Source of the DNA: Chryseobacterium sp. OSA05B
GTDB taxonomy: Bacteria > Bacteroidota > Bacteroidia > Flavobacteriales > Weeksellaceae
Direction: 5' to 3'
Length of the DNA: 64,000 nt
Assembly: GCF_019970065.1 (NCBI RefSeq)
Contig: NZ_JAHXYH010000007.1
Location: 1-64,000 of the forward strand
Of the stretch, positions 4,155 through 59,923 are shown in pieces. A model generated the notes under the pieces. That model did no database searches. It had not been told where the DNA came from and was given only the letters and a program-made list of their open reading frames with translations. Within the stretch, counting starts at the first letter, position 1; every line of letters starts with the position of its first letter. The translations under genes were made by a program, and so were the position numbers.

Positions 4155-5525
4155 TTATTTTAAGACATTCAGAATTTTCTGCAGTTCTGCACCCCCGCTT
4201 CCCTGATAGTTATTAATAATGATTGAAAATACATATTTTTTGCCATCTTTCGCGGTATGGTAGCCTGCAAAAGATTTGGTATCTCTCATGGTTCCGCTTT
4301 TCATCTTCATTCCATTGTCCTGAACCGGAAAACCGTCATAATAGGCATCAAACCAAGCTTGTTTTTTGGCATAGATCAAGGCCTGAACTTCAGCTTTGGC
4401 AGCTACGTAATTTTGAGGAGACAGTCCGCTTCCGTCTGCAAAATTGATCATATTCGGATTGATCCCTTTTGATTTCCAGAATTCTTTCAGATAAGCTACT
4501 CCGCTTTTAAAGCTGGAATTCCCTTTTTTTTCTTTTCCTAAGGTTTTAATGAAAGTTTCACCGTAAAGATTAACACTTTTTCTCAAAAACCAATAGACCA
4601 TTTTATCTAAAGTTGGCGATTCGTAGGTAAGAATTGTATTTTTAGGAGCTCCCGGGATCGTTTTTCCTTCTAATTGCAGTTGTGAACCTGTGATTGCTTT
4701 TCCGGAGATTTCAACCCCTGATTCTTTAAGCCATTGTAATGCCTCAGTTCCCAACTGCAGTGGCGGATTGGGTAAAGCACCGGAAACCGTGACTGTTTTT
4801 CCGGCTGGCAGCGTTCCATTGATCAAAGCAACGTCAGAATAAGGTGCCGTAAAAATGAGACTTTGATCTGAGCTTCCACCGGCTTTGAGGTCATTCAGCC
4901 ATTTTATATGGTCAAGCGGATAGGAAAACCCTTTGAATTCTGTGCCATTAATATTGATGTCAAACTGATTTTCTCTCCAGTTGATTCCCCAGACTCCCGC
5001 TCCGTAATAGTTCCCCAGATCATCCCAGGGCCATCCTCCCGGAATGGTCTGATGGTCAAAATAGGAATCATCAATCACCAGATTCCCTGCAATCTTTTTT
5101 ATGCCTGAATTTTTAAGCGCTTCAATGAATTTCTTCTTAAAACTTTCCGGTTTATATGCTTCATACCGCCAGCTTCCAAGGGTTGGATCACCATTGGAAC
5201 CGATGATCAGATCTCCGTTCAGCGTTCCTGATGAAAGATTCCCTGAATAACCGGCCGTTGTTTTATAGGTGTAATTTTTTCCTAATATTTCAAGAGCAGC
5301 CCCAGCTGTAAATATTTTCTGGGTAGAAGCCGTTGAAAGCCCTTTATTCCCCTGATATTCGTAGATCAAAGTACCGCTTTCGTCTGTTACGTAAAACGAT
5401 AAACCGGATGAAACAGCACCAGAAGAATCCATCAGGTCTTTGGTAGCTTTATCCAGTTTCTGCGCCATATTCTGAGCAGATAATATCTGAACCGACAGTA
5501 TAAGAACTGCAAGTGTTTTTTTCAT
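4155..5525 (-). CDS. dacB: D-alanyl-D-alanine carboxypeptidase/endopeptidase, PBP4 (DacB) type
   Basis: This 456-residue exported protein (signal peptide about 1-18, ending SAQ) is a class C low-molecular-weight penicillin-binding protein acting on peptidoglycan stem peptides in the periplasm. The SxxK box is STQK with catalytic S67 and K70 in the typical STASTQK setting. The SxN-type motif lies in DGSGLSPQN and the KTG-like motif in KSGTMRD, both near the C-terminus as in S13 peptidases. A large insert follows the first motif, which is characteristic of this class. It is the first gene of the minus-strand group containing a sensor kinase and a secreted protein. Confidence 0.93.
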   Translation of the reverse strand: MKKTLAVLILSVQILSAQNMAQKLDKATKDLMDSSGAVSSGLSFYVTDESGTLIYEYQGNKGLSTASTQKIFTAGAALEILGKNYTYKTTAGYSGNLSSGTLNGDLIIGSNGDPTLGSWRYEAYKPESFKKKFIEALKNSGIKKIAGNLVIDDSYFDHQTIPGGWPWDDLGNYYGAGVWGINWRENQFDININGTEFKGFSYPLDHIKWLNDLKAGGSSDQSLIFTAPYSDVALINGTLPAGKTVTVSGALPNPPLQLGTEALQWLKESGVEISGKAITGSQLQLEGKTIPGAPKNTILTYESPTLDKMVYWFLRKSVNLYGETFIKTLGKEKKGNSSFKSGVAYLKEFWKSKGINPNMINFADGSGLSPQNYVAAKAEVQALIYAKKQAWFDAYYDGFPVQDNGMKMKSGTMRDTKSFAGYHTAKDGKKYVFSIIINNYQGSGGAELQKILNVLK

Positions 5526-5581
5526 TACAAGCTTATTTATTCAAATATAGAAAAGATTCTGCCTTAATTCAAATCTCCCCA

Positions 5582-6142
5582 TTAACTTATGAAACCTGAC
5601 AATTTTCTTTCTAAAGTCCAGGTTCCGTTTACTTTTTTTAACAATACTCTTTCTCCGTTTCCGCATAAACCACCACAGTAATGACCATAACTTACGATTA
5701 CTTTAGATTTATCAGATGAAAATAAAGGTTTACCAACAAACATAAAAGATGTCTTTCCATGCTTTTTATTAAACTCATCCCAAAAATGTTTCCCTTCTGA
5801 TTTGTATGCCAACAATTTTGCTTTATGAACGATCCTTAAATTCTGAATATATTTTGGGTTAAGAACGAACCCTTCAGAATCTTCGTACTGTTGCTTTATT
5901 GATTTAATATCTTTTTGATTAAAGTCATTTTTTAATATTTTAATGTCTAAAAAGTAATCATCACTTTGATGAGTTTTATAATTTACATCTTCCGTAATAA
6001 CTTTTATATTTTTAATATGTTCGGTTTTTACTTTAATGACATAATTAATAACATCATATATCTCTTCATCTGAAATTGTTGGAACCTGTGATCTACAAGT
6101 TCCAAAAAATAAAACAAAACAGATGAGTAATCTTTTAATCAT
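5582..6142 (-). CDS. Hypothetical secreted protein
   Basis: This 186-residue protein has a short signal peptide ending near CRSQV. A small Gly/Cys-rich segment (HYCGGLCGNGER, near residue 155) precedes a beta-rich C-terminus of the kind seen in small periplasmic proteins. I do not recognise the family. It is about 20 bp downstream of the pepE-like gene on the same strand and may be cotranscribed with it. Confidence 0.65.
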   Translation of the reverse strand: MIKRLLICFVLFFGTCRSQVPTISDEEIYDVINYVIKVKTEHIKNIKVITEDVNYKTHQSDDYFLDIKILKNDFNQKDIKSIKQQYEDSEGFVLNPKYIQNLRIVHKAKLLAYKSEGKHFWDEFNKKHGKTSFMFVGKPLFSSDKSKVIVSYGHYCGGLCGNGERVLLKKVNGTWTLERKLSGFIS

Positions 6143-6161
6143 GAAAATAATTTTAGAATTA

Positions 6162-6854
6162 CTAAATTGAAGTCCCCGCCTCTATTTCATATGGTTCTTT
6201 CCCTTTTTCAAAGATTCTGGTCAATTCACTGCCTTCTACGGTGATCGTATTTCCAATTCTTCTGATCCAGTTTCCTTCACGAAGGCCAACGACCTTCAGA
6301 TCATTTTGAGTCAGGAATTCTCTGATCCTTGTTTCTCTGGTTTCGCCATTGTGCTTCAATTCAGGATTTGGGTCAAGATAATGCGGATTGAGATTGAACG
6401 GAACAAGTCCCATACATTCAAAACTTGGCGGATATACGATAGGCATGTCATTCGTTGTCTTCATATTCTGGCCTCCGATATTGCTTCCGGCGCTGCATCC
6501 CAGATAGGCTTTCCCGTTTTCTACATTATCTTTAAGAACAGACATCAGGCCTTCTTCATGCAAAGTTTTCACCAGTAAAAATGTATTTCCACCTCCTGTA
6601 AAATATCCCTGAGCATTATTTAAGGCTCCTTCTTTATTGTCAAATTCGTGAAGACCTCTTACTTTAATATTAATAGTTTCAAAAAAAGAACCGGCTTTTG
6701 CCGTGTAATCGTCATGGGAAATTCCACCAGGTCTGGCGAAAGGAACGAAAATGATCTCATCTATTCCTTTATATAGCTGTATTAATTCTTCTCTTAAGTA
6801 TTCCAGATATTCACCACCGAAAATAGTGGATGTTGAGGCTAATATGATATTCAT
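6162..6854 (-). CDS. pepE: Peptidase E-like dipeptidase (family S51)
   Basis: The chosen start (6854, MNIILASTST) gives about 230 residues, the usual length for cytoplasmic alpha-aspartyl dipeptidase. An upstream in-frame ATG would add a hydrophobic, low-complexity extension unlike the family. The nucleophile elbow is GCSAGSNIGG with Ser at about 121, and YFTGGGNTF about 30 residues earlier is the conserved S51 glycine loop. The family cleaves N-terminal Asp-X dipeptides. The small secreted-protein gene follows closely on the same strand. Confidence 0.85.
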   Translation of the reverse strand: MNIILASTSTIFGGEYLEYLREELIQLYKGIDEIIFVPFARPGGISHDDYTAKAGSFFETINIKVRGLHEFDNKEGALNNAQGYFTGGGNTFLLVKTLHEEGLMSVLKDNVENGKAYLGCSAGSNIGGQNMKTTNDMPIVYPPSFECMGLVPFNLNPHYLDPNPELKHNGETRETRIREFLTQNDLKVVGLREGNWIRRIGNTITVEGSELTRIFEKGKEPYEIEAGTSI

Positions 6855-56319: not shown

Positions 56320-57258
56320 TCATGAGCGAAATTCCATCGGTGTGAAAGATGTTTTTCTTTTAAAAAAGTTGGAAAAGTGGGCAATCTCCTCAAAACCCAA
56401 TGCATAAGAAATCTCAGAAACATTCCATTTAGTCTGTCTTAAAAGGATTTTAGCTTCCTGTACCATTCGGTCTGCGATTAATTCAGTCGTGGTTTTTCCC
56501 GTGCTTTCCTTTAATTTTTTATTTAAATAATTGACATGCACGGCAAGACGGTCTGCATAGTCTTTGGCTGTTTTCAGCTGCAGCCTCTGTTCTGAAGATT
56601 CGATGGGAAACTGCCTTTCCAACAGTTCTATGAATAGTGAAACTACCCGTAATGAAGCATCATTGGCAGCCGATAATTTCGCGGCAGGCTGCAGCTTCTG
56701 TCCATAATGGATGAGCTCCAGGACATAATTTCTGATCAGATCATATTTGAATACATAATCTGAGTCTATTTCTCTTTTTATTTTCGTAAAAAGCACTTCT
56801 ATTTCATCTGCCAGCTCATCATCAATTTCAAATAACGGAACATTTCCGGGTTGAAATATCGGCAGTTCTTCCAGTGAAAACCGTGATTGTGCCTTAATGA
56901 AAAAGTCTTCGGTAAATACACAGAAACTTCCTGACTGATCAGGATCTTCAGGAACCCAGTGATAGGGAACTTTCGGAGTGGCAAACAGCAAAGCGTTTTT
57001 CTTTATTGCGATGATCTTATCAGCATATTCTGCCCTGTTCCGGCCTCTGATAAGGCTGATTTTATAATACTTCCGTCTGTTGTACGGCATTTCCGAAGTC
57101 ATTTTTACCCTTTCTATCGTCTGCCTGATATCGAAAACATTAAAGTGTCCGATATCTTTATGAAGTCCCTTTGGAAAAATACTTTCAAGGTCTTTTCCCA
57201 GCTTGGCGGTCATTTCTCTGTAAAAATCTTCAAGGGATGCATGAGCGATCTTATCCAT
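56320..57258 (-). CDS. AraC family transcriptional regulator
   Basis: This 312-residue soluble regulator has an N-terminal cupin-like sensing domain (about 25-150) and a C-terminal AraC HTH pair (LAVHVNYLNKKLKESTGKTTTELI, then VSEISYALGFEEIAHFSNFFKRKTSFTPMEF). It probably controls the SDR gene about 100 bp downstream. It is divergent from the peptide cluster beginning at 57391, so control of the peptides is possible but unproven. Confidence 0.9.
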   Translation of the reverse strand: MDKIAHASLEDFYREMTAKLGKDLESIFPKGLHKDIGHFNVFDIRQTIERVKMTSEMPYNRRKYYKISLIRGRNRAEYADKIIAIKKNALLFATPKVPYHWVPEDPDQSGSFCVFTEDFFIKAQSRFSLEELPIFQPGNVPLFEIDDELADEIEVLFTKIKREIDSDYVFKYDLIRNYVLELIHYGQKLQPAAKLSAANDASLRVVSLFIELLERQFPIESSEQRLQLKTAKDYADRLAVHVNYLNKKLKESTGKTTTELIADRMVQEAKILLRQTKWNVSEISYALGFEEIAHFSNFFKRKTSFTPMEFRS

Positions 57259-57390: not shown

Positions 57391-57552
57391 ATGAAAAATC
57401 AAAACTTAGAAAAAGGAAAAAAATTAAACAAAAAAGAATTACGAAGCATTACCGGCGGATTGATGATCTGTCGTGATCCAAAAACCAATCAGTGCCGGAT
57501 TTTTTCACAAGGTTGTGCAGATCCGCAATGCAGGCCCGACCCATTGGATTAA
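57391..57552 (+). CDS. Double-glycine-leader Cys-rich peptide 1 (4-Cys type)
   Basis: This 53-residue product has the leader MKNQNLEKGKKLNKKELRSI ending TGG, cut predicted after Gly22. The roughly 31-residue core has four Cys in the pattern C-x7-C-x6-C-x4-C, with Asp-Pro after the first Cys and CRP near the end. It resembles the small bacteriocin-like proteins of Chryseobacterium relatives. It is a single-gene unit with its own terminator. Function as bacteriocin, signal or surface peptide is inferred only. Confidence 0.8.
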   Translation: MKNQNLEKGKKLNKKELRSITGGLMICRDPKTNQCRIFSQGCADPQCRPDPLD

Positions 57553-57567
57553 CCGATGAAACAAAAT

Positions 57568-57594
57568 ACCATTCCCATAGGAGTGGTTTTTTTA
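57568..57594 (+). terminator. Terminator after peptide 1
   Basis: ACCATTCC pairs with GGAGTGGT around a CATA loop, followed by seven T. Confidence 0.88.
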
Positions 57595-57699
57595 TGAATA
57601 TCACAGGGTAATCAGCCATACACCTATACAAAGACATAGTTTTTGTTTTTTATTTGAATATTTATCATAACGCCGTGATATAATATCAATTATTTTCTT

Positions 57700-57707
57700 T
57701 ATTTTAG
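57700..57707 (+). promoter_or_regulatory. Promoter-like octamer (TATTTTAG) before peptide 2
   Basis: It lies 37 bp before the ATG. The following leader ends in the same CTAACACACTAAAAATC-type stretch as the leader of peptide 3. Confidence 0.5.
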
Positions 57708-57736
57708 TTAAAGCTAACACACTAAAAATCAAAACA

Positions 57737-57901
57737 ATGAAAAATCAAGACTTACCGAAAGGAAAAAAACTGAACAAAAAGCAATTAAGAAGCATCACAG
57801 GAGGATTAATGGACTGTATTGATCCCATGACCGGAGGATGTAGAAAAATCTCAATCGGCTGCGCACAATTACAATGCAGACCTATCATAGATCCTTTATA
57901 A
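57737..57901 (+). CDS. Double-glycine-leader Cys-rich peptide 2 (4-Cys type)
   Basis: This 54-residue product has a leader ending KKLNKKQLRSITGG and a core with the same C-x7-C-x6-C-x4-C pattern as peptides 1 and 5. The core is moderately conserved (DP after the first Cys, CRKIS, GCAQ). It is a single-gene unit between two terminators, with its own promoter-like element. Confidence 0.8.
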   Translation: MKNQDLPKGKKLNKKQLRSITGGLMDCIDPMTGGCRKISIGCAQLQCRPIIDPL

Positions 57902-57913
57902 AGAATCAAAAAA

Positions 57914-57940
57914 GCCGTTCACTCCTGAGCGGTTTTTTTA
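57914..57940 (+). terminator. Terminator after peptide 2
   Basis: CCGTTCA pairs with TGAGCGG (one wobble) around CTCC, followed by seven T. Confidence 0.88.
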
Positions 57941-58007
57941 TTTCGGTCATCAAATACAATTTTTGAATATTTTTTCTTCGACAAGTGAAATATATTAATA
58001 TTTTTCA

Positions 58008-58015
58008 TATCTTAG
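58008..58015 (+). promoter_or_regulatory. Promoter-like octamer (TATCTTAG) before peptide 3
   Basis: It lies 38 bp before the ATG. Position and downstream leader closely match those of peptide 2, suggesting duplicated promoters. Confidence 0.5.
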
Positions 58016-58045
58016 TTTTCAACTAACACACTAAAAATCAAAACA

Positions 58046-58237
58046 ATGAAAAACCTATTTTTAACAAGTGGGAAAAAACTAAGCAAAAAACAATTAAAAA
58101 CGATCGCAGGAGGCCTACTGAACTGCATGCAACCGGTTCTTTGCCCGAATCAGCCATGCGAACCTTCTTCAGATCCTTATGGATGTACCATCATTTCTAA
58201 GGTTTGTGCACAAAAAGAATGCAGACCGCAGCTTTAA
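58046..58237 (+). CDS. Double-glycine-leader Cys-rich peptide 3 (6-Cys type)
   Basis: This 63-residue product has a leader ending KKLSKKQLKTIAGG (cut after Gly23). Its core has six Cys in the pattern C-x5-C-x4-C-x8-C-x6-C-x4-C. The last three Cys align with the last three of the 4-Cys peptides, and the extra N-terminal pair is new. It is the first gene of a three-gene unit with no terminators between genes. Confidence 0.8.
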   Translation: MKNLFLTSGKKLSKKQLKTIAGGLLNCMQPVLCPNQPCEPSSDPYGCTIISKVCAQKECRPQL

Positions 58238-58274
58238 GTTTAAAATTAATCAAGAATTAATTCAATTGAAAGCT

Positions 58275-58490
58275 ATGAAAAATCTAATTTTAAACAGCGG
58301 AAAAAAGCTAAGTAAAAAAGAGCTTAAAACTATTTCCGGAGGTATGATCAATTGTATGGAACCTATTGTTTGTACAGAGTTTCCATGTGAACCTATTCCA
58401 CCGGATGATCCAAGAGCATGTACAAAAATCTCTGTAGGCTGTGCACAAAAAATATGCAGACCACAACCGGAACCTGTATTTGAACCATAA
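58275..58490 (+). CDS. Double-glycine-leader Cys-rich peptide 4 (6-Cys type)
   Basis: The start at 58275 gives 71 residues with the leader MKNLILNSGKKLSKKELKTI ending SGG. The frame is open further up, but that part is only the end of peptide 3 in another frame. The core has six Cys spaced nearly as in peptide 3, with an acidic, Pro-rich tail. It starts 37 bp after peptide 3. Confidence 0.8.
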   Translation: MKNLILNSGKKLSKKELKTISGGMINCMEPIVCTEFPCEPIPPDDPRACTKISVGCAQKICRPQPEPVFEP

Positions 58491-58538
58491 TCTTTATTAT
58501 CCCGTTTACAAAAAACTAATTAAAATAAATCAAAGACT

Positions 58539-58718
58539 ATGAAAAATCAAAATTTAAGCAACGGAAAAAAACTCAACAAAAGAGAACTAAGAACAATCGT
58601 TGGTGGAAAAGAAATGTGTATTGATCCTGCTACAGGAGAATGCAGAAAATACGGAAGAGGATGTGCTGAACAGCAGTGCCAGCTGATCATCATAGATCCT
58701 ATCGAGCGAATGTTCTAA
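58539..58718 (+). CDS. Double-glycine-leader Cys-rich peptide 5 (4-Cys type)
   Basis: This 59-residue product has a leader ending KKLNKRELRTIVGG and a core with C-x7-C-x6-C-x4-C, then a hydrophobic tail IIIDPIERMF unlike the others. It starts 48 bp after peptide 4 and ends the three-gene unit. Confidence 0.8.
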   Translation: MKNQNLSNGKKLNKRELRTIVGGKEMCIDPATGECRKYGRGCAEQQCQLIIIDPIERMF

Positions 58719-58739
58719 GGTCAAGAAATATTTTTAAAG

Positions 58740-58767
58740 AACCACTCTCCTGCAGGGTGGTTTTTTA
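58740..58767 (+). terminator. Terminator of the peptide operon
   Basis: AACCAC pairs with GTGGTT around an inner CCTGCAGG palindrome, followed by six T. Confidence 0.85.
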
Positions 58768-58831: not shown

Positions 58832-59923
58832 TTATACGTTGAATCTGAAGTGCATGATGTCACCATCCTGTACAATGTATTCTTTACCTTCTACAGAAAG
58901 TTTTCCCGCTTCTTTAATTTTCACCTCAGAACCGTACGTTAAATAATCATTGTACTTGATTACTTCTGCACGGATGAATCCTTTTTCAAAGTCTGTGTGG
59001 ATCACTCCGGCAGCCTGTGGAGCTGTCCATCCCTGACCAATTGTCCAGGCTCTTACTTCTTTTACACCCGCTGTAAAATACGTCTGAAGCTTTAACAGAT
59101 CGTAAGCTTTTCTGATCAAACGGTTTACTCCTGGCTCTTCAAGACCTAATTCTTCAAGGAAAATCTCTCTTTCTTCAAATGTTTCAAGCTCATTGATATC
59201 TGCCTCGATCTGTGCTGCCAAAACAACAACTTCTGCTCCTTCATTCTTAGCCATCGTTTCGATTTTCTCTATCCATTCGTTTCCGTTTTTGATCGAGTTT
59301 TCGTCTACGTTGCACACATATAATACCGGCTTTTTCGTTAAAAGCTGAATATCATCAATGATAGGCTGCGTTAAATCATTAACAGGAAATTCTCTTGCAT
59401 TCTTTCCATCTTCAATGAACTTTTCTAAGTTTTGAAGGGTTTCATATACAAGGATATCGTCTTTCTTTCCAGACTTGATGAATTTTTTAGCTTTGTCAAC
59501 TGCTTTTCCTACTGTTTCAAGGTCTTTCAGCTGTAACTCGATGTCGATAATTTCCTTATCTCTCATCGGATCTACAGAACCTTCAACGTGGATGATGTTA
59601 CCGTTGTCAAAACATCTTAAAACGTGGATAATGGCTTCACACTCGCGGATATTCGCCAGAAACTGGTTTCCCAATCCTTCTCCTTTGCTAGCCCCTTTTA
59701 CAAGACCTGCAATGTCAACGATTTCAACTACCGCAGGAAGTACTCTCTCCGGATTAACTAATTTCTCAAGCTCGAATAATCTCTGATCCGGTACCGATAC
59801 CGTTCCTAAGTTCGGTTCTATGGTACAGAAAGGATAGTTCGCAGACTGTGCTTTAGCATTGCTTAAGCAGTTAAAAAGAGTTGATTTACCTACATTCGGA
59901 AGGCCTACAATTCCACATTTCAT
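58832..59923 (-). CDS. ychF: Redox-regulated ATPase YchF (Obg family)
   Basis: This 363-residue P-loop protein has G1 GLPNVGKST at about 7-15 and G3 DIAGLVKGAS. In place of the GTPase NKxD it has NVDE in YVCNVDEN, the YchF hallmark that gives ATP preference. The coiled-coil and C-terminal TGS domain (AGVIHTDFEKGFIRAEVI) are intact. It binds ribosomes and negatively affects oxidative stress responses in E. coli. Confidence 0.95.
   Translation of the reverse strand: MKCGIVGLPNVGKSTLFNCLSNAKAQSANYPFCTIEPNLGTVSVPDQRLFELEKLVNPERVLPAVVEIVDIAGLVKGASKGEGLGNQFLANIRECEAIIHVLRCFDNGNIIHVEGSVDPMRDKEIIDIELQLKDLETVGKAVDKAKKFIKSGKKDDILVYETLQNLEKFIEDGKNAREFPVNDLTQPIIDDIQLLTKKPVLYVCNVDENSIKNGNEWIEKIETMAKNEGAEVVVLAAQIEADINELETFEEREIFLEELGLEEPGVNRLIRKAYDLLKLQTYFTAGVKEVRAWTIGQGWTAPQAAGVIHTDFEKGFIRAEVIKYNDYLTYGSEVKIKEAGKLSVEGKEYIVQDGDIMHFRFNV

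Follow-up and report, generated by a model that had tools for sequence, protein, structure and literature searches.

Five short tandem genes in a Chryseobacterium genome encode peptides with a leader that suggests export, and nothing beside them looks able to export anything. What would process these peptides, and what would they do outside the cell? We addressed both questions in a 64,000-nt stretch of Chryseobacterium sp. OSA05B (NZ_JAHXYH010000007.1, positions 1 to 64,000; hereafter the window), combining analysis of the window with comparisons across the genus and the host's family.

Five tandem genes between an AraC-type gene and ychF

A sequence-only reading of the window had proposed five tandem double-glycine (GG) leader, cysteine-rich peptide genes with no maturation machinery nearby. 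The genes were found as described, with exact end coordinates (57391-58718, all on the plus strand; Table 1). The start of gene 4 was placed by alignment with the other four genes, and an in-frame ATG upstream, at 58179, begins a longer ORF. The flanking genes, an SDR gene and an AraC-type gene on one side and ychF on the opposite side, are all encoded on the minus strand (named by reading). Between the AraC-type gene and ychF, a reading of the window's ORFs found no exporter, modifying enzyme or immunity-like ORF, in line with the earlier claim.

Table 1. Features of the peptide array and its borders in the window
Feature	Position	Strand	Details
AraC-type regulator gene	56320..57258	-	One site boundary; named by ORF reading
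Precursor peptide 1	57391..57552	+	53 aa; leader residues 1-23 (57391-57459); core 57460-57549, 4 Cys
Terminator-like hairpin 3' of peptide 1	57568..57587	+	z -4.3; also in simple scan
Precursor peptide 2	57737..57901	+	54 aa; core 57806-57898, 4 Cys
Terminator-like hairpin 3' of peptide 2	57908..57939	+	z -7.5; absent from simple scan
Precursor peptide 3	58046..58237	+	63 aa; core 58115-58234, 6 Cys
Precursor peptide 4	58275..58490	+	71 aa; core 58344-58487, 6 Cys; gap to gene 3, 37 nt
Precursor peptide 5	58539..58718	+	59 aa; core 58608-58715, 4 Cys; gap to gene 4, 48 nt
Terminator-like hairpin 3' of peptide 5	58735..58767	+	z -4.2; absent from simple scan; closes the likely 3-4-5 unit
ychF	58832..59923	-	Other site boundary; named by ORF reading

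All five precursors share thirteen leader residues (M1, K2, N3, L6, G9, K10, K11, L12, K14, L17, I20, G22 and G23) and six core residues (C27, P30, C35, C42, A43 and C47, peptide 1 numbering); peptides 3 and 4 carry two cysteines beyond the four invariant ones. Each leader ends in GG and keeps the hydrophobic positions (L12, L17 and I20) that characterize substrates of C39 exporters. T runs follow the hairpins of genes 1, 2 and 5, and the array is likely transcribed as three units: gene 1, gene 2 and genes 3-4-5, the last grouped because of their spacing of 37 and 48 nt. A sigma-70 promoter scan returned 6 sites against 7.0 expected, and no promoter claim follows from it. The Bacteroidota -7 promoter motif is TAnnTTTG; it occurred in 2 of 225 upstream stretches, and base shuffles gave more (11.6). 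As an impression only, we note look-alikes of this motif upstream of genes 1-3 (TACCTTGG, TATTTTAG and TATCTTAG). The AraC-type gene was considered as a controller of the array and set aside as unsupported, because several relatives have other genes between the two.

We assembled a core set of 225 GG peptides from the window and the loci of 60 relatives. C-x6-C-x4-C was present in 221 of them, with four cysteines in 140 of these cores, six in 76 and eight in 5. None of the 225 cores had an odd number of cysteines and none of the 225 leaders had any; odd counts were also absent among the 59 cores that were less than 70% similar (0/59). The 14 non-array leader peptides of the same genome, identified with a stricter pattern in fetched stretches, were likewise all even. 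Even counts are what disulfide pairing predicts, and we infer that the core cysteines pair into disulfides. Over the 221 array peptides, leaders were 18-23 aa long (23 aa in 198) and cores had a mean charge of -0.9, near neutral to acidic; array cores spanned 27-59 aa. AlphaFold gave no usable fold for 53 six-cysteine cores (mean pLDDT 50.9, pTM 0.16), and at this pLDDT we claim neither a fold nor a disulfide connectivity. A search for solved relatives with an 84-member profile gave none that was credible: four sequences at E <= 10, of which the best (0.043) matched in the leader only.

The leader class is already known. NCBI model NF047798 (leader_Chryseo), named "bacteriocin-like protein", has the same leader core as the array, KKL.K..L..I.GG, so this kind of peptide is not new in itself. 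The model covers 18 leader positions and is silent on cores, array, site and exporter. It matched 63 of 84 diverse array members at E <= 0.05, and the five window peptides scored 14.2-20.6 bits, all under its cut-off of 23.5. With TIGR01847 (bacteriocin_sig, cut-off 15.7), peptides 1, 2 and 4 scored 17.3, 15.8 and 18.2, and peptides 3 and 5 scored 14.7 and 13.7. No paper on this array appeared among the top-ranked results of open-licence full text, a scope that leaves out most subscription papers. What is new here is the fixed-site array, the strict cysteine parity and the predicted export in trans.

A fixed site with variable copy number

A profile built from the five peptides matched 125 of 173 Chryseobacterium genomes at E <= 1e-8. 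The E values of its own five members (8.8e-26 to 2.9e-31) are partly self-recognition, since the profile was built from them. The same profile found 14 further places in the array's own genome at E <= 0.05, which suggests that the array belongs to a repertoire scattered over the genome. In a wider search of 296 genomes drawn from the host's family, the 84-member profile matched 115 at E <= 1e-6. These came from two of 33 genera, one of which contributed four genomes (best E 2.2e-10 to 6.8e-9). Among the 76 named loci from the family search, each counted as a search match, 75 belonged to Chryseobacterium and one to a Weeksellaceae MAG.

We examined the locus in 60 of the 124 other profile-matched genomes, mostly best matches. 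The stretches were centred on the match, so the frequency of arrays at other places cannot be read from this sample. The SDR, AraC and YchF genes surrounded the array site in all 60 relatives, and 59 had one to six copies there (0, 1, 2, 3, 4, 5 and 6 peptides between AraC and YchF in 1, 13, 4, 22, 9, 7 and 4 genomes, respectively). The sole zero-copy relative, L134, has a decayed array copy at 6290-6481. Copies resembling peptide 1 were present in 16 relatives, giving a group (win1) of 17 once the window's own copy is counted; those resembling peptide 2 were present in 28, giving a group (A) of 29 on the same count. Array-type peptides also lay beyond the SDR gene in 18 of the 60. Our comparison set without the array comprised 24 genomes: 20 of the 48 unmatched genomes and four weakly matched ones (G001, G056, G069 and G094). 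In none of the 24 did the 1.5 kb flanking ychF on each side contain a GG peptide, so the profile matches of the latter four must lie elsewhere. The same flanks held an AraC gene in 22 of 24 and a lipoprotein-like gene in 15 of 24. From the copy counts in the 60 relatives and the flanks in these 24 genomes, we conclude that the AraC-YchF site is old and that the array was gained, expanded or lost there.

The AraC-YchF gap is longer in some relatives, and we translated 14 such stretches. The genes in them, named by reading, were lipoprotein-like (about 360 aa), SDR-like, metal-hydrolase-like, AraC-like, dioxygenase-like and transposase-like, and none was common to all 14, which argues against a hidden immunity or exporter gene. 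The lipoprotein-like gene of about 360 aa, with Asp-rich stretches, is the one found in the gap of 15 of the 24 no-array genomes; it also stands beside the array in several species (e.g., L096, L102, L090, L120, L124 and L125). In L110, a transposase-like ORF of 446 aa (5356-6696) sits inside the array. In L089, L112 and L128 a second recurring site, between ferritin-like and GH10-like genes, holds a GG peptide of another kind, with core GLLDPVCKLLCTLADSGLLNL... or a close variant of it; the leader pattern finds no peptide there in the window.

The sequence-only reading had described a shared leader with variable cysteine-rich cores and had called the locus diversifying. Paralogous cores of one genome were on average 32% identical, against 75% over the final 14 residues of the leader (414 pairs), so the variable cores hold and the copies have indeed duplicated and diverged. 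For cores compared across genomes, the best match averaged 88% (median 93%; 221 cores), a figure inflated by taking the best of many over 60 genomes; the corresponding figure for the best paralogue was 44% (209 cores). The window peptides and those of four near relatives were reciprocal best matches in 20 of 20 cases, with core identities of 0.61-1.00. Median pairwise dN/dS was 0.12, 0.14, 0.24 and 0.13 for the cores of four groups and 0.07, 0.13, 0.20 and 0.15 for their leaders. These values lean low, because the groups, which take in 113 of the 221 cores, were defined by core motif and saturated pairs were left out; usable core pairs numbered 308/406, 70/136, 564/1312 and 68/105, and the remaining pairs were too alike or saturated. 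Over all pairs, the uncorrected core ratio was 0.20-0.35. Median dS was 0.9-1.4. A further core-motif pattern, D, had no matching cores. Given the conservation of cores across species and median dN/dS of 0.12-0.24, purifying selection appears to act on orthologous cores, and the data agree with cores being kept rather than driven apart after a copy arises. "Diversifying" thus describes the paralogues and not the orthologues. In the comparison of copy number and core divergence that had been suggested, copy number varies (0-6 in 60 genomes) and orthologous cores are conserved.

A candidate exporter and oxidation operon in trans

Finding no C39 or related peptidase anywhere in the genome would have refuted the earlier proposal that an exporter elsewhere serves the array. 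The genome of our strain (G000) has three C39 peptidase ABC transporter genes above the PF03412 cut-off, with frames of 733-741 codons without stops. One of them, at C121:20.1 kb, lies in an operon (G000:C121, about 18.1-23.9 kb) with the one-strand gene order VKOR-thioredoxin protein, GG peptide, C39-ABC, GG peptide and HlyD; the VKOR, Thioredoxin_4, Peptidase_C39, ABC and HlyD_3 domains are all above cut-off. A search for C39 and HlyD genes near other KKL..K..L..I.GG peptides had been suggested, and the two cis peptides of this operon pass NF047798 (38.2 and 28.5 bits against 23.5). Over the last 14 leader positions, one of the two agrees with the array consensus at 10 and the other at 7, although array leaders are 5 aa longer than theirs.

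The second C39 gene (C143:135.6 kb) belongs to a lanthipeptide-like locus on the array's own contig, 77 kb away, and the third (C99:444.7 kb) lies behind a radical-SAM-like gene (both by reading). One of these two transporters might export the array peptides instead, or several might share the load: all three C39 frames are open, and the lanthipeptide-like one is on the same contig as the array. However, the precursors beside these two have quite different leaders, matching the consensus at 4 and 3 of 14 positions (a comparison affected by the leader end of the radical-SAM-locus precursor, which was our choice), and we regard an exporter other than that of C121 as unlikely. The lanthipeptide-like locus (G000:C143:135571-143216; L035 9572-17217) includes, by our reading, its own C39 ABC transporter together with a Cys-containing GG precursor-like ORF (L035 17399-17593, minus strand).

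We then compared the C121 operon with the corresponding loci of 20 relatives, hand-picked among genomes with the VKOR protein. Counting our own genome, the VKOR protein was present at 21 of 21 loci, C39-ABC and HlyD at 20 of 21, and at least one KK-GG peptide at 17 of 21 (all but L226, L227, L235 and L236). C39 and HlyD were absent from the fetched stretch beside VKOR in L237, and in L238 the C39 gene was about 4.9 kb off. The exporter protein closest to our own was that of G049 (99%). Across the genus, 162 of 173 genomes had the VKOR protein (E <= 1e-30), though in a few the match was weak or partial. It occurred in 124 of 125 genomes with an array-profile match, four of these matches being weak and off-site, versus 38 of 48 unmatched ones (Fisher p 1.1e-5, phylogeny ignored). 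The only matched genome without it, G069, is itself weak and off-site. This genomic evidence gives good support to the predicted processing and export of the peptides in trans through a VKOR/C39/HlyD system, and the C121 system likely exports the array peptides.

Other peptides of this genome carry related features. A lone GG peptide on the exporter's contig (G000:C121:73219-73395, L037), about 53 kb from the exporter gene, has a core ending in the array's C-x6-C-x4-C-RP. A tandem cluster of four (G000:C132:239232-240178, L038) has the array leader type and cores of the form CPP...C..WC with 6 Cys each, and a third tandem cluster (G000:C110:219616-220150, L045) comprises three GG peptides with cores ending CC.

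The cysteines could alternatively be modified in trans by a RiPP enzyme, either a radical SAM enzyme or an MNIO, rather than being disulfide-bonded. TIGR04149, a leader model for radical-SAM-modified RiPPs, matches 60 of the 84 diverse members at E <= 0.05, and the genome has one MNIO (PF05114) and the radical-SAM-like gene adjoining a C39 gene. Yet in the window only peptides 1 and 5 are listed at E <= 1, with scores (17.7 and 20.9) under the TIGR04149 cut-off of 25, and TIGR04148 and TIGR04150, which we take to be the maturase partners of TIGR04149 (GG radical SAM), gave no match in our genome, these being the two GG-radical-SAM families tried. Moreover, the MNIO and radical-SAM-like genes each adjoin a small Cys-containing ORF of their own (by reading), and even cysteine counts suit pairing. 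Modification of this kind seems very improbable to us. The MNIO gene (G000:C99:690603-691217, L270) directly adjoins a small ORF ending GCPACGMG, perhaps its precursor.

Possible roles outside the cell

We propose that the KKLxKxxLxxIxGG leader of each precursor would be recognised and cut after GG while the peptide crosses the envelope via the C39-ABC/HlyD exporter of G000:C121. The VKOR-thioredoxin protein encoded in the operon would oxidise the core, forming two disulfides in four-cysteine cores and three in six-cysteine cores, and the peptides would act outside the cell. Overall, we think it probable from the genomic comparisons that the array is a satellite of a dispersed family of secreted disulfide peptides, exported by the C121 system and oxidised by its VKOR protein, with a community role slightly favoured.

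For that role, our first choice by a small lean is a retained community function (matrix or signal) rather than a toxin, because of the fixed site, the conserved cores and the non-cationic charge. The grounds are conservation, charge and analogy, and killing is compatible with the same data. The analogy is to EbfG1-4 of Synechococcus elongatus, four small GG-motif proteins that their authors judge partly redundant; they are needed in biofilm development, and their efficient secretion requires the cysteine of the C39 transporter PteB (PMC4997328). Their host is a cyanobacterium, the likeness is one of type and not drawn from sequence comparison, and the passages on EbfG1-4 mention no cysteine scaffold or VKOR partner (PMC4997328). 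The bacteriocin-type signal domain proteins of Treponema denticola are, like the array, tandem, probably duplicated and GG-type; they were present in supernatants, and bactericidal activity was undetected there (PMC11879956). Unlike the array, their genes lie upstream of their own ABC transporter genes and are paired with lipoprotein genes (PMC11879956). Within Chryseobacterium itself, the chryseoviridin loci (graspetides) also encode precursors with tandem duplications, but they include an ATP-grasp enzyme (PMC8939145), and our reading found none at the array.

More narrowly, the peptides might be signals that the same cells sense through a surface or two-component receptor. Known GG-leader pheromones include ComC and BlpC, and some array leaders match their profiles weakly, below threshold. 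On the other hand, no receptor or sensor kinase was seen at the site, either in the window or in the 14 translated gap stretches of relatives, although one may be encoded elsewhere, and many parallel copies with 4-8 cysteines would, in our judgement, be unusual for a pheromone; this specific reading is improbable. A toxin is a more serious contender, though we still consider it somewhat less probable than not. The peptides would then be bacteroidetocin-like or class II microcin-like, secreted by the same route against other Bacteroidota, with producers protected by target differences. The NCBI name of the leader class points this way, and several divergent copies per genome suit a set of weapons. 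The precedent is close: bacteroidetocins are GG-leader, Cys-containing toxins of the same phylum, encoded with a transmembrane protein, a C39-type ABC transporter and usually a thiol oxidoreductase, the latter two as in the array's candidate operon, and with no obvious immunity gene in the region (PMC6671954); the title of PMC8546649 names BamA as their target. The sequence-only reading had taken the missing immunity gene as an argument for a signal or structural role. That argument fails, since bacteroidetocins lack one too (PMC6671954) and are nonetheless toxins, so the absence is no bar to a toxin.

Several differences from bacteroidetocins weigh the other way, none of them decisively. Bacteroidetocin leaders are 15-16 aa long (PMC6671954), versus 23 aa in the window and 18-23 aa array-wide, and the first-found mature bacteroidetocins are 42-48 aa (PMC6671954), versus array cores of 27-59 aa. 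Their machinery is encoded in the same four-gene region (PMC6671954), whereas up to six tandem array copies stand without an adjoining exporter or oxidoreductase and have their candidate machinery elsewhere; by reading, the window has no bacteroidetocin-type transmembrane protein, ABC transporter/peptidase or thiol oxidoreductase gene beside the array. Array cores are near neutral to acidic, and their orthologues are conserved across species at a fixed site. Bacteroidetocins kill Bacteroidales; for the array peptides, killing would be a prediction of the toxin reading.

We retain the community-function reading as a slight preference. The broadest form of the proposal is tentative, possible rather than probable: that Gram-negative bacteria of this genus share disulfide-locked peptides on the scaffold C-x5-7-C-x6-C-x4-C, with or without further cysteine pairs, encoded in a fixed-site, copy-variable array, and that a dedicated VKOR-thioredoxin/C39 system handles these peptides in trans for a social role as matrix or signal and not as toxin. 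For peptides that databases call just "bacteriocin-like", the analysis provides a concrete candidate operon for export and oxidation, and it opens the question of whether dispersed GG-peptide genes form one secreted repertoire. With its fixed site, variable copy number and even cysteine counts, the array would be well suited to studying the evolution of small secreted disulfide peptides, and whether these are weapons or community factors.
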